DNA from: Bacteroidales bacterium
Lineage (GTDB): Bacteria; Bacteroidota; Bacteroidia; Bacteroidales; UBA10428
NCBI GenBank assembly: GCA_016935355.1
Contig: JAFGRC010000149.1
Location: forward strand, 1 to 56,096
Length of the DNA stretch: 56,096 bases
Direction: 5' to 3'
The translations under genes and the position numbers were made by a program. Each line of letters begins with the position of its first letter. Within the stretch, counting starts at the first letter, position 1. This document shows positions 3,488 through 19,358 of this stretch, one piece after another. The notes below the pieces were generated by a model. That model saw nothing but the letters and a program-made list of their open reading frames with translations. It ran no database searches and was not told the DNA's origin.

Positions 3488-4462
3488 ATGTACACGCTTG
3501 ACGATATAAAAAGGCCTGTTTCAAAAGAGCTTGCTGAATTTGAAAATTATTTCAGGGACGTCATGAAATCAGACATACCTCTGTTAAATTTTCTGATCAA
3601 ATATGTATTGAAAAGAAAAGGTAAACAAATGAGGCCTTTATTGGTTTTTCTGTCAGCAAAACTATTCGGGGAGCCAAATAAATCAACATTTACAGCAGCG
3701 GCTATGATTGAAATACTTCATACTGCCACCCTGATTCACGATGATGTTGTTGATGATTCCCATCAACGGCGTGGATTCTTTTCAATCAATGCCATCTGGA
3801 AATCTAAAATTTCTGTTTTGCTTGGGGATTATTTGCTTGCAAAAGGATTATTGCTCGCAGTGAACAACCATGAGTATGATCTGCTGCATCTTGTATCAAA
3901 TGCAGTAAAAGAAATGAGTGAAGGAGAATTGCTTCAAATAAAATATTCTCGTAAATTAATCATTACTGAGGATGAATATTTCGACATCATAAAAAAGAAA
4001 ACGGCAACATTGATTAGTTGCTGCAGTTCAAGCGGCGTAATATCAATCGGGATGGCTGATGATACGGTTCAAAAAATGAAGCGTTTTGGGGAGTTTTTGG
4101 GTATCGCATTTCAAATTAAAGATGATCTTTTAGATTTCCAAAACAATAAACTTACCGGGAAACCTGCTTTGAATGACATTAAAGAAAAGAAATTAACACT
4201 GCCAATTATTCATTCTCTTTCTACGGCAAATCATAATGACAGACAAAAATTGTTGCGTTTGTTGAATAATAGTTCAATGAATCATCACAGGTACACAGAA
4301 ATTATCGATTTTATTAATCGAGAGGGTGGAATCGAATATGCAAACAATAAAATGCTGGAATATAGCTCATTGGCCTTAAGTGAACTGGATTCCTTACCTA
4401 AGGGAGAAATAAAAAATTCTTTAACAGATTTTGTACATTATACAAATTCTCGTAAGTTATGA
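3488..4462 (+). CDS. Polyprenyl diphosphate synthase (trans, long chain)
   Basis: A 324-residue trans-isoprenyl diphosphate synthase that chains isopentenyl diphosphate units, most likely to make the side chain of menaquinone. The first Asp-rich motif is IHDDVVDD, with DDxxD at 85-89, and the basic GKQMRP substrate loop precedes it. The second Asp-rich motif is FQIKDDLLDF near residue 210. The residues before the first DDxxD (EILHTATLI) are small and aliphatic rather than bulky aromatic, which favours a long product such as octaprenyl (inference). The 3' end overlaps the convergent uvrC gene by 6 bases. Confidence 0.93.
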   Translation: MYTLDDIKRPVSKELAEFENYFRDVMKSDIPLLNFLIKYVLKRKGKQMRPLLVFLSAKLFGEPNKSTFTAAAMIEILHTATLIHDDVVDDSHQRRGFFSINAIWKSKISVLLGDYLLAKGLLLAVNNHEYDLLHLVSNAVKEMSEGELLQIKYSRKLIITEDEYFDIIKKKTATLISCCSSSGVISIGMADDTVQKMKRFGEFLGIAFQIKDDLLDFQNNKLTGKPALNDIKEKKLTLPIIHSLSTANHNDRQKLLRLLNNSSMNHHRYTEIIDFINREGGIEYANNKMLEYSSLALSELDSLPKGEIKNSLTDFVHYTNSRKL

Positions 4463-6262
4463 TTTTATATGCAAATATTCATACAGTATACGCCCTGCCC
4501 TTTTACCAATAATCATTTCAAGATCAGTTAATTGCATTTTTCTAACCGTTTCAATATCCTTTGTATTCTGTAACAGCTTATTCTTTGTTATTTTGCCGAT
4601 ACCTTTAATCTGATCCAGTTCTGAAAAAAGCATGGATTTTGATCTTTCATTTCTGTGAAAGGATACTCCAAAACGATGTGCTTCATTTCGTATCCTTTGT
4701 ATCATTTTCAAGCCCGGTGAATTCTTGTCAATATATAAGGGTACCATATCTCCCTGAATATAGATTTCTTCAAGCCGTTTTGCGATTCCAATAAATGTTG
4801 TTTGCTTTTTCATGACTATATCGTGAATTTCCTTTAACGCTGCATTCAATTGACCTTTACCTCCATCGATAACGAACAGATCAGGAAACTTCAGCTGATG
4901 CTCCTTGAAGTACCGGAGTCTTCTTTTTACTATTTCCCCAATTGATGCATAATCATTTGCCCCACTGACTGTTTTTATATGGTAACGTCTGTATTCTGAT
5001 TTATTCGGTTTACCTGATTTAAACACAACACATGATGCAACAGAATTCTTTCCCTGAATATTTGATATATCAACGCATTCAATATGATTGGGGATAACTT
5101 TCAACCTGAGCTCATTTTTAAGAGATTCCAGTGCATTTTTTTCAAATGAAGTTCTTCTATTGCTTTCCTGTATTCTGATTCTTTCTATTCGAAATGAATT
5201 CACATTTCTAAAAGATAAATCAAGTAATTTCTTTTTATCTCCTCTTAAAGGTACTGTAAAATTAACACCTTTAAGGGTCAAATCAAGTTTGAACGGGATA
5301 ATTATTTCGCTCGAATTGCTATTGAATCGGTTTCTAAGCTCAAAGATGGCAAAAGACAAAACATCTTCTGCCTGTTCCTCAATCCTCTTAATGATTTCAA
5401 TGTTATGGGCCTGTATGATTGCACCCTTTACCAATTTCATATAATTAACATATGCCGAACCAGGCTCATCTATTATCGAATATACGTCAATATTATTTAT
5501 CCCTGGATTAACTATTGTTGACTTTGCTTTGAACTTATCCAGTATTTCTAATTTCTGTTGGATAAGATGTGCTTTTTCATATTCATACTTATCTGCATAA
5601 TCCAGCATGTGTTGATTTAAATGATTGATCACCTGTTGCAGATTTCCCTTTAGTATTTCCCTTATTTGCTTCAATGAAGCATTATAATCATTTTCACTCT
5701 GCAGTCCTTCACATGGTGCTTTGCAATTCTCCAAATAATATTCAAGACAACGCTTATACTTTTTCTTAAGAATATTTTCTTGCGTCAGTGAATAATTGCA
5801 GGTTCTAAGCTTATATAATTGTTTTATAAGCGCAAATAAGGTTTTGATCATCATTACGGAAGTATATGGCCCGAAATATTCCGATCCGTCATTGATAATC
5901 TTTCTCGTATAAAATACTCTTGCAAACGGCTCGTTCTTTATGCAAATCCAGGGAAATGTCTTATCATCTTTAAGCAGTACATTATATTTGGGTTTATACT
6001 CTTTTATTAAGTTATTTTCCAAGAGCAACGCATCTGATTCATTTTCGACAAGTATATATTTAATATCATGTATTTTACTAACAAGAATTTTTTGCTTGTA
6101 ATGAATTGTGTTGACCTTGCCAAAATAACTTGATATTCTTTTCCTTAAGTTCTTTGCCTTGCCAATATACAGAATTTCACCTGTTTGATTATAGAATTGA
6201 TAAACACCAGGTTTTTCAGGTATGTTTCCGATTTTAACCTTTATGGTTGAATGAATGCCCAT
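4457..6262 (-). CDS. uvrC: UvrABC excinuclease subunit C
   Basis: UvrC (601 aa) makes the 3' and 5' incisions of nucleotide excision repair. The N-terminal GIY-YIG nuclease is seen as PGVYQFYN...EILYIGKAKNLRKR. A UVR motif that binds UvrB follows near residue 200 (DYADKYEYEKAHLIQQKLE). The RNase H-like 5' nuclease has CVDISNIQG, VIDGGKGQL and the HRFGVSFHR segment. A double helix-hairpin-helix (IKGIGKITKNKLLQ, IGKRAGRILYEYL) ends the protein. Nothing is missing. It converges with the polyprenyl synthase gene and is separated from mnmG by a 77-base spacer that holds a parS-type palindrome. Confidence 0.97.
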   Translation of the reverse strand: MGIHSTIKVKIGNIPEKPGVYQFYNQTGEILYIGKAKNLRKRISSYFGKVNTIHYKQKILVSKIHDIKYILVENESDALLLENNLIKEYKPKYNVLLKDDKTFPWICIKNEPFARVFYTRKIINDGSEYFGPYTSVMMIKTLFALIKQLYKLRTCNYSLTQENILKKKYKRCLEYYLENCKAPCEGLQSENDYNASLKQIREILKGNLQQVINHLNQHMLDYADKYEYEKAHLIQQKLEILDKFKAKSTIVNPGINNIDVYSIIDEPGSAYVNYMKLVKGAIIQAHNIEIIKRIEEQAEDVLSFAIFELRNRFNSNSSEIIIPFKLDLTLKGVNFTVPLRGDKKKLLDLSFRNVNSFRIERIRIQESNRRTSFEKNALESLKNELRLKVIPNHIECVDISNIQGKNSVASCVVFKSGKPNKSEYRRYHIKTVSGANDYASIGEIVKRRLRYFKEHQLKFPDLFVIDGGKGQLNAALKEIHDIVMKKQTTFIGIAKRLEEIYIQGDMVPLYIDKNSPGLKMIQRIRNEAHRFGVSFHRNERSKSMLFSELDQIKGIGKITKNKLLQNTKDIETVRKMQLTDLEMIIGKRAGRILYEYLHIKS

Positions 6263-6299
6263 ATGTTAAATAATTGATTGTATAAAATATTGGCTCCAT

Positions 6300-6315
6300 T
6301 GTTCCACGTGGAACA
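6300..6315. other. parS centromere-like site (ParB-binding palindrome)
   Basis: TGTTCCACGTGGAACA is a perfect 16-bp palindrome that fits the bacterial parS consensus TGTTnCACGTGnAACA. ParB dimers bind such sites, usually clustered near the replication origin, and with ParA they drive chromosome segregation. It sits in the short spacer between the end of mnmG and the start of uvrC; parS sites near gidA/mnmG are known in several phyla. No second perfect copy was noticed in this window, and parA/parB are not here. Confidence 0.85.
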
Positions 6316-6339
6316 TTTCTTCAGGCTAAAAATCATCGA

Positions 6340-8214
6340 TCACCTTCCCATGTATAACAATAAAATATTAATATCACTTGGTGAAACTCCTGGTATTCTT
6401 AGCGCCTGTCCTATTGTTTCGGGCTTTATCTTGTTCAGTTTTTGTCTTCCCTCAGTGGATATAGATTTTAAATCGTCATATTTGATATCTGTTTCAAGTT
6501 TAATGTTGTTAAGCCGCTTTACTTTATCTGCTAACATTCTTTCCCTTTCAATGTATCCTTTATACTTAATTTCCACCTCTACGGATTCCCATAATTCTTT
6601 ATCATAGAATTTCTGATCTTTTTTATAAATATTTAAATCCTCAACACTTTCTCTTAATTCCTCTATTGATACTTCGGGACGCAACAAAATATCTATCAAT
6701 TTAATCCTTTGCCTTATTGGTGAGGAGTTTTTCCTTATTAAATATGAATTCGCCTTCTCAGGTGTTATGCTATAGTTCTCAATAAACTTTTTTATCTCTT
6801 TTCTTTTTCTATTTCTATCATTATATATTCTTTCACGCTCCGGTTCAGCAAGTCCTATACCTATTGCAATTGGTGTAAGTCTCATATCAGCATTATCCTG
6901 CCTTAATAAAATCCTGTATTCAGCTCTTGAGGTAAACATTCTGTATGGCTCATCAACTCCTTTATTTATAAGATCATCTATTAACACACCTATATATGCT
7001 TCATCCCGTTTTAATATAACTGGATCCTTACCTTTCATCTTCATGGCAGCATTGATCCCTGCAACAATTCCTTGCGCTCCTGCCTCTTCATATCCCGTAG
7101 TTCCGTTTACTTGTCCCGCAAAGTATAATGATTCAATAATTTTGCTTTCAAGGCTTAAATTCAATTGTACCGGTGGGTAATATTCGTATTCTATTGCATA
7201 ACCTGGTCTGTATATCCTTGCATTCTCCAATCCTTTTATATTCCTTAAAGCTTTATACTGCACATCCAATGGTAGCGATGATGAAAAACCGTTTAAATAA
7301 TATTCATTTGTTTTCCAACCTTCCGGTTCAAGAAAAAGTTGATGCTGTTCCTTTTCACCGAATGTTATTATTTTTGTCTCTATACTTGGACAGTATCTCG
7401 GTCCTTTGCCTTTAATTGTACCATTGTAAAGAGGCGACTCAGAAAATCCCTGTTTTAAGATTTCATGCACTTTCTCATTCGTATAAGTAATATAACAACT
7501 TCTCTGCTTTTTCGTTATTTCCGTTTCCATAAAAGAAAACCTTCTGATATCCTCATCACCATGTTGCTCTTCAAGAATTTTAAAATTTATAGTCCTCCCA
7601 TCTATTCTTGCAGGCGTTCCGGTCTTCATTCTTCCTGATTCAATTCCTTCCTTATTTAACTGCCAGCTTATCCCTGAAGAATTTGGTTCAGCAATCCTTC
7701 CTCCGTTTGTCTTAAATCTTCCAATATATATTAATCCTTCTTCAAATGTACCCGTTGTTAAAATTACTGCCTTGGAATAGAATGTAACACCCATTTTTGT
7801 TCTTACTCCACAGACTATTTTCTTTTTAATTATTAATTCATTTACATTATCCTGCCAAATATCCAGATTATCAGTATTTTCCAATATAAATCTCCACTTC
7901 AATGTAAATAAACTTCTGTCGCATTGTGCCCTTGGACTCCACATAGCCGGTCCTTTGGATTTATTTAACATCCTGAATTGAATCATACTTTCATCAGTAA
8001 CAATAGCCGAATGTCCCCCGAGTGCATCAATTTCCCTCAATATTTGTCCCTTTGCAATACCGCCCATAGCAGGGTTACAAGACATTTGTGCTATCTTCGT
8101 CATATCTATTGTCACGATCAAAACCTTTGCTCCGCATCTCGCAGCAGCTACAGCTGCTTCACAACCAGCATGACCAGCCCCTACTACTATTATATCATAT
8201 ATTTCTTGCCTCAT
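6340..8214 (-). CDS. mnmG: tRNA uridine-5-carboxymethylaminomethyl modification enzyme MnmG
   Basis: MnmG/GidA (624 aa) binds FAD and, with the GTPase MnmE, installs the carboxymethylaminomethyl group on wobble U34 of tRNAs. The N-terminal Rossmann motif is VVGAGHAGCEAA. Other family signatures are CNPAMGGIAKGQ, TGTPARIDGR and GQVNGTTGYEEAGAQG, and the C-terminal helical MnmE-binding domain is complete. mnmE is not in this window. The gene lies between ybeY and the parS site. It is visibly AT-rich in codon choice, as are its neighbours. Confidence 0.97.
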   Translation of the reverse strand: MRQEIYDIIVVGAGHAGCEAAVAAARCGAKVLIVTIDMTKIAQMSCNPAMGGIAKGQILREIDALGGHSAIVTDESMIQFRMLNKSKGPAMWSPRAQCDRSLFTLKWRFILENTDNLDIWQDNVNELIIKKKIVCGVRTKMGVTFYSKAVILTTGTFEEGLIYIGRFKTNGGRIAEPNSSGISWQLNKEGIESGRMKTGTPARIDGRTINFKILEEQHGDEDIRRFSFMETEITKKQRSCYITYTNEKVHEILKQGFSESPLYNGTIKGKGPRYCPSIETKIITFGEKEQHQLFLEPEGWKTNEYYLNGFSSSLPLDVQYKALRNIKGLENARIYRPGYAIEYEYYPPVQLNLSLESKIIESLYFAGQVNGTTGYEEAGAQGIVAGINAAMKMKGKDPVILKRDEAYIGVLIDDLINKGVDEPYRMFTSRAEYRILLRQDNADMRLTPIAIGIGLAEPERERIYNDRNRKRKEIKKFIENYSITPEKANSYLIRKNSSPIRQRIKLIDILLRPEVSIEELRESVEDLNIYKKDQKFYDKELWESVEVEIKYKGYIERERMLADKVKRLNNIKLETDIKYDDLKSISTEGRQKLNKIKPETIGQALRIPGVSPSDINILLLYMGR

Positions 8215-8705: not shown

Positions 8706-9104
8706 TTATTTTAAATTAAACTCCATTTCAACCGTTGCACCGTTCTTTGTAAACCGTAAGTTATCAGAAAGCTTCTCCATTAGAAATATTCCTCTTCCAT
8801 TTACATTCTCTATATTTTCAGGAGCAGTAGGATCCGGCACATTTTTGTAATCAAATCCGCTGCCCTCATCTTCTATTTTGAATGTAAGTATTTCATTATT
8901 TATATTCAGTTCGATATTAACAAACTTACTATCTTCCAGCTTATTTCCATGCAATATGGCATTATTTGCTGCCTCAAGAACCGCTATAAGAATGTTTCCA
9001 TATATATCAGTACTAATATTATATTCCGCTGATAATTCATCTACTAACTTCTCAACTTTTCTTAAGTTTTCTGTTTTTGAACTTATTCGTAACGTCTTTT
9101 CCAT
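8706..9104 (-). CDS. RsbW-like serine/threonine anti-sigma kinase (GHKL ATPase)
   Basis: A 132-residue single-domain GHKL ATPase of the anti-sigma regulatory kinase type. The N box is ILIAVLEAANNAILHGNKL, the G1 box is EDEGSGFD, and the G2 region is NVNGRGIFLMEKLSDN. Relatives such as RsbW, SpoIIAB and BtrW bind a sigma factor or phosphorylate an anti-anti-sigma (STAS) protein. No STAS protein, sigma factor or PP2C phosphatase is in this window; the distant SiaC-like gene at 28951 belongs to a related signalling world. ATG at 9104 is preferred over a TTG 24 bases upstream. It is likely co-transcribed with ybeY, 3 bases away. Confidence 0.88.
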   Translation of the reverse strand: MEKTLRISSKTENLRKVEKLVDELSAEYNISTDIYGNILIAVLEAANNAILHGNKLEDSKFVNIELNINNEILTFKIEDEGSGFDYKNVPDPTAPENIENVNGRGIFLMEKLSDNLRFTKNGATVEMEFNLK

Positions 9105-9181
9105 TCCTTGCTTTTCTTTTCTTTGCAATTAAATATACTAAAATCACGTATTTTTGGTTACTATTTTTCTGATATTTTAGT

Positions 9182-17792: not shown

Positions 17793-19358
17793 TCATTGAA
17801 ATAATTGAAGTCGATCTTCCTCAAATTCAATACGTATACCATTAATCCTGTATTCTTTGTTATCCCGGTATGTTATTGTAATCAGCAGGTTTCCGTTCTC
17901 ATCATATTTCTTCCAGTCTTTTTCACTGATCCCCATATTATAATAGTTCACTTCCTTCAAAACTCCATTGGGATAATAGAATCTGTGCATACCATCAGGA
18001 TTCCCCTGAATATAGTTACCTTCATATTTTAATTGACCGTCTGAATAAAATGCCTGCCATTTCCCGTCCCTCAATCCCCCTATATAATTCCCCTTTTCAA
18101 TATAATCACCAACCTGATAATACCATTCTCCTTCCTTTTCCCCGTCAAAATAACTTCCTTGTGTTATGATATTTCCCAGCATATCATATTCATAAGTAAC
18201 ACCCTCCTCCATTCCGTTATAATATTCCTCTTCGCGCTTTATGGATTCGTCTTCATAATACCACGTCCATAAGCCATCCGGTTTCCCGTTCTGAAATATG
18301 CCTTCCTGTTCAACAATCCCACCTTCATAATAGAATTCCCATTCTCCTTTTTCCAGATTATTTTCAAATCTTCCTTTTGACCGCACACTGCCATTCTGAA
18401 AAAAATATTTCCATTCTCCTTCTTTGCTACCCTCGTTTGTAATGATTCCTTCTCCTATTTTGTTCCCGGATTCATTATATAAAAAAGCGTTAATAACCTT
18501 TCCCTCCACATCATACTGACGGTGTATACCAATGGGTATGCTGTCGCGGTATGTCCCCGAGTAGATCAGATTACCATCATTATCATACCTGCTTCTTATT
18601 TCAACATCAATATCAACTGTATCAAATTCCTCTACAAGCAATCCCTTATTATATTCCAGCAAAACACTGATGTTGCCATTCCGGTCATATTCCTTATACG
18701 GACCGCTTAACTGGTCATCTTCATAATACCTTTCAATACGAATTTTACCATTATCATAATATTCCCTCCACAATCCCTGCTTAAGTCCGGCTTCATCAAT
18801 CCTGTTGATCCTTTCACGATCAACAAGGATGCCATTATTATAGGTCCTGATCATTATTATATTCCCTTCCGGATCATATTCCTTTGAAATGCCTGAACGT
18901 TTGTTTTCACTAAACTCCGCTTCTTCTTTTATAATACCGTTTGTATGGTAATAATAAGAAATACCCTCTTTTTTATCATTAATATAAAGTTCCCTCGATA
19001 TGACTCTTCCCCTGCTTAAAGGATCTTTATCTGCTTCTGTATTATAACCAATTGTGTAACCGTTTCTTTTCCCCATTACATAACTGACCTTCTGCATCGT
19101 ATCTCCCGCTTCATTATAAAATACCCATATACTGTCCAGAATAAAGTTCGTTCTGACCCCTTCACTTCTCAACACACCGTTAGGATAATAGGTTTTCCAG
19201 TAACCATCGGGTTTTCCATCGCGTATGGTTCCCTCACTTGACAGCACTCCCGTGGGATAGTATAATTTATGATACCCGTCCTCAAGTTCTTCTTCCTGAC
19301 TGTATGCATAAGCCACCATGACTATAAAAATCATCGAACTTATGATAATCCTTTTCAT
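17793..19358 (-). CDS. Exported YwqK/MORN-like repeat protein
   Basis: A 521-residue secreted protein made of about 18 repeats of the form GxWxxYYxNGxLxxEG, spaced 20-30 residues (for example [48 protein letters not shown]). A signal peptide ([20 protein letters not shown]) precedes the array. Such repeats are annotated as MORN-like or as YwqK-family antitoxin, but here there is no toxin gene beside it and the export signal argues against an antitoxin role. The function is unknown; a surface or periplasmic beta-rich binding rod is plausible. Its ATG overlaps the nadA stop codon (ATGA) and its stop nearly touches the ruvB start, an unusual sandwich. Confidence 0.85.

Follow-up and report, generated by a model that had tools for sequence, protein, structure and literature searches.

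A palindrome beside mnmG as the predicted chromosomal parS site of a Bacteroidales bacterium

Introduction

Between uvrC and mnmG of a Bacteroidales bacterium lies a short perfect palindrome, which raises the question of whether it serves the segregation of the chromosome or the expression of its two neighbors. A preliminary description of this DNA had claimed a perfect parS-type palindrome in an intergenic location, and had regarded the window, if the site is real, as origin-proximal and the spacer as a centromere element and not just a terminator. In the ParABS system of model bacteria, ParB nucleates on parS and spreads via CTP onto adjoining DNA, and movement of the complex by ParA separates the origin regions (PMC7333895). 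The two ParB and ParABS reviews that we searched make no mention of Bacteroidetes; a Hi-C study of two gut Bacteroidetes found ParABS and no recognised SMC condensin (PMC10197239). We analyzed the window, i.e., the whole 56,096-nucleotide stretch of DNA, together with the draft genome of the host (2.83 Mb, 94% complete, 173 contigs) and genomes of its relatives.

A single perfect match in the mnmG-uvrC spacer

The palindrome is found at exactly the positions that had been claimed and lies within the gap between the two genes, as follows:

4457 to 6262, minus strand: uvrC (Pfam UvrC_RNaseH_dom, E 1.7e-50; GIY-YIG), the neighbor on the other side of the site in the host's family
6263 to 6339, no strand: mnmG-uvrC intergenic spacer of 77 bp that holds the 16-mer; the remaining spacer sequence is unconserved
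6300 to 6315, no strand: predicted parS site; the perfect palindrome TGTTCCACGTGGAACA has the same sequence as parS2 and parS3 of P. aeruginosa (PMC4368675); position kept in relatives
6340 to 8214, minus strand: mnmG (gidA; Pfam GIDA, E 6e-159, plus SAM_GIDA_C), the anchor gene of the site across Bacteroidota

The 16-mer TGTTCCACGTGGAACA has full dyad symmetry and matches the 16-bp palindromic consensus TGTTNCACGTGNAACA perfectly. When up to 2 mismatches are allowed, it is the sole match to this consensus within the window, compared with a mean of 0.14 in shuffles, and the only match in the entire draft genome at 0–1 mismatch. At 2 mismatches, 9 further matches occur genome-wide, versus 9 for the reversed control pattern. 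Based on base composition, ~0.012 perfect matches are expected per genome and ~2.5e-7 for the mnmG-uvrC spacer. The scan at up to one mismatch that had been suggested earlier thus returned one copy, so the motif is not scattered through the genome; nor does it form a large cluster there.

The 16-mer has the sequence of the strongest sites in P. aeruginosa: parS2 and parS3, which share the 16-mer with the chromosomal parS of P. putida, are the sites bound most tightly by P. aeruginosa ParB (PMC4368675). Of the ten parS sites of P. aeruginosa, four are near oriC, whereas the single site of the host is anchored to mnmG and its parAB genes are on a different contig. A single high-affinity parS near the origin is sufficient in P. 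aeruginosa (PMC4368675, PMC7022226).

The host encodes a chromosomal-type ParB

The earlier description would have lost its basis in a genome that lacks ParB; the host encodes a ParB of the chromosomal type with an adjacent ParA. Its only ParB_N protein is encoded on contig C127, with parA immediately upstream, and both parB and dnaA are located on contigs other than that of the 16-mer. When compared with solved chromosomal ParB structures, the host protein matched those of H. pylori (E 1e-49) and Caulobacter (E 2e-46) at 162–172 bits. It contains an N-terminal LGRGL motif as well as GERRLRA and ENIQR, and the CTP-binding motifs are kept. Of the 296 near-complete genomes in the class, 291 have a ParB.

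We also considered a Noc-binding site (NBS), since the protein of the Noc/NBS nucleoid occlusion system is related in fold to the host ParB and its site is likewise a palindrome of 16 bp. Arginine at position 173 and glycine at position 201 are reported to be absolutely conserved in ParB, with glutamine and arginine in their place in Noc (Jalal et al., PMC7383237). The host protein has R173 and G201 at these discriminating residues and therefore is not Noc, and the NBS sequence is itself unlike parS; the NBS reading was rejected. Among 24 ParB proteins of relatives, R173 occurs in all 24 and G201 in 23. Positions 179 and 184 in Caulobacter numbering, reported as variable among ParBs (PMC7383237), are Tyr and Lys/Arg in the aligned Bacteroidales ParBs, and the host differs there from the Thr and Ala of the known systems. 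The adjacent parA-parB pair, R173/G201, the CTP motifs and the parS consensus are common to the host and to the ParABS systems of Caulobacter and Bacillus (Spo0J/Soj).

Conservation within the family and order

In the host's family (23 genomes), the TGTTCCACGTGGAAC[A/T] sites for which we read the flanks are all located in the mnmG-uvrC spacer. The mean major-base frequency in 14 relatives is 0.98 inside the 16-mer and 0.48 on either side of it, and the central ACGT is invariant in all 14. Across the order Bacteroidales, GTTYCACGTGRAAC is present in 127 of 149 genomes, with the reversed control almost absent. Relatives usually carry one or two copies of the site, sometimes up to four or five.

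Family genomes without a near-consensus site were not counted against conservation because most of them have no mnmG in the assembly. The gene is absent from 8 of the 23 family assemblies (G002, G003, G008, G009, G015, G017, G019 and G021), some of which are 93–100% complete; these eight also have no TGTTCCACGTGGAAC-type site, the entire mnmG-parS region being missing. The region may really have been lost, or binning may have been biased against contigs close to the origin.

Several relatives carry, toward uvrC, a second, slightly degenerate parS that is 3.5–5 kb away from the first (L053 at 15923, L054 at 7675, L057 at 14978 and L059 at 15869); there is no such second site in the window.

The site is anchored to mnmG across Bacteroidota

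The site (at most 1 mismatch) is present within 3.5 kb at 60 of the 71 named mnmG loci of Bacteroidota, compared with none of 71 for the reversed control. Fifty of these 60 carry it at most 200 bp 3' of mnmG, usually just past the stop codon, and in some lineages it is found upstream of the gene. The other neighbor, uvrC, is no fixed partner of the site, being ~1.7–2 kb off or elsewhere in most other Bacteroidales; in lineages from which uvrC has moved away, the site remains by mnmG, often downstream of it and with unrelated neighbors. Zero-mismatch sites were detected in 13 of 16 single- or two-contig genomes of the order and class, all adjoining mnmG. In 2.4 Mb of sampled genome sequence there were no perfect 16-mers and only two GTTNCACGTGNAAC cores, both of which correspond to the L280 pair, i.e., the mnmG-adjacent sites of G205. 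One copy in the host and a mnmG-side position kept through family and phylum are the opposite of the random scatter that would have spoken against the preliminary description.

No site at 1 mismatch or fewer was found within 3.5 kb at 11 of the 71 loci; one of these, L056, has CGTTCCACGTGGAACG directly after mnmG. The single-contig genome G001/CP070654.1 was considered as having lost the site, which was rejected, as CGTTCCACGTGGAACG directly follows its mnmG. No ParB was found in this 75%-complete genome, which does not represent a clean case of co-loss. A reduced 1.2-Mb Bacteroidales genome (L236 of G112) has mnmG, and has neither ParB nor a parS near mnmG.

In the literature searched, which did not include the parS survey of Livny et al. 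2007, we found no report of a phylum-wide anchoring of parS to mnmG.

Alternative explanations for the palindrome

Taken with the host ParB, this conservation makes it very likely that the palindrome is the chromosomal centromere (parS), the predicted landing site of ParB, of this Bacteroidales bacterium. The best of the alternatives, which we nevertheless regard as very unlikely, is a transcription-factor operator acting on mnmG or on uvrC, e.g., a LexA-like SOS box, as uvrC, which functions in DNA repair, has the 16-mer 37 bp upstream of it. LexA normally has further targets at its own promoter and at other repair genes, whereas the 16-mer is present in a single copy in the genome. Furthermore, the site keeps to mnmG where uvrC is elsewhere, which would not be expected of a LexA-type operator, and is often downstream of mnmG among unrelated neighbors.

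An intrinsic terminator, or an RNA hairpin at which transcription of mnmG would end, is slightly less probable still. A scan does report a stem of 6 bp followed by the tail TTTCTTC on the plus strand, but both genes use the minus strand, and there the tail reads ATGGAGCC, with no T-run. The T-rich tail thus exists only on the strand used by neither gene and is unconserved among relatives, while the central ACGT, the part of a hairpin that would form its unconstrained loop, does not vary among the 14 relatives; some lineages, moreover, carry the site upstream of mnmG. These observations favor the spacer as a centromere element rather than just a terminator, as had been suggested.

A functionless chance match is a general possibility, with ~0.012 perfect matches expected per genome, that we consider negligible given that the same position is kept in the family while the flanks have diverged, and that 60 of the 71 loci in the phylum have a site, compared with none of 71 in the control.

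Distance of parS from the replication origin

Since the host draft consists of 173 contigs, origin proximity was measured by GC skew in single-contig relatives. The distance between parS and the skew-defined origin is 1.6% of the genome in G154 (permutation fraction 0.003) and 1.0% in G400 (permutation fraction 0.000), with significant skew in both. The distance of 1.9% in G313, where the skew is weaker (permutation fraction 0.117), is suggestive. G205 disagrees, as its weak skew (permutation fraction 0.087) would place the site on the far side of the chromosome from the origin, and the skew computed for G170 and G171 gave no usable signal. In the host genome itself, the site may likewise be close to the origin.

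In the single-contig Bacteroidales genome G154 (locus L154 at C1 1672980; dnaA at C1 467170), dnaA is ~1.1 Mb from the skew switch and parS is within 70 kb of it, which argues that parS rather than dnaA tracks the origin there. Likewise, parB is ~1.7 Mb from parS in G400, so that parS rather than parAB tracks the origin in that genome. The pattern in G154 fits the Hi-C report that dnaA is not a reliable, systematic origin marker in the bacteria mapped (PMC10197239).

Proposed mechanism and evolutionary origin

Based on the known ParABS systems, a ParB dimer would recognize the 16-bp palindrome through its helix-turn-helix, and would then close into a CTP-bound clamp that may slide onto the adjacent DNA over mnmG and uvrC. 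After replication, the ParA encoded beside parB would separate the origin regions coated with ParB.

The ancestral cluster of origin genes has parAB and dnaA beside mnmG; in the host they are not. It seems somewhat more probable than not that a parS locked to mnmG is a constant origin landmark in Bacteroidota from which dnaA and parAB have become separated, over distances that reach more than 1 Mb, and that it is left over from an ancestral gidA-parAB-dnaA cluster at the origin, kept since parS function tolerates little relocation. Recurring next to mnmG in much of the phylum, the site would then mark where these little-studied chromosomes begin separating. A single, position-conserved parS beside mnmG provides a precise target for ChIP, fluorescent origin labelling and segregation tests in this phylum, and a mnmG-side parS offers a simple rule to find the origin region in fragmented genomes. 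If the site is indeed locked to mnmG, the mnmG-adjacent parS would locate the origin in Bacteroidota drafts better than dnaA.

Surroundings of the site in the window

The minus-strand run that leads to mnmG includes a gene for a HATPase_c_2 (anti-sigma-kinase-like) protein at 8706–9128, between ybeY and an M23-peptidase gene. A MORN_2-repeat protein is encoded at 17793–19358, between ruvB and nadA, and overlaps the start of ruvB. From 6000 to 30000, the G+C content rises from ~0.33 to ~0.40 and the GC skew goes from ~−0.3 to ~0 near 20 kb, a shift that coincides with the end of the run of mostly minus-strand genes.
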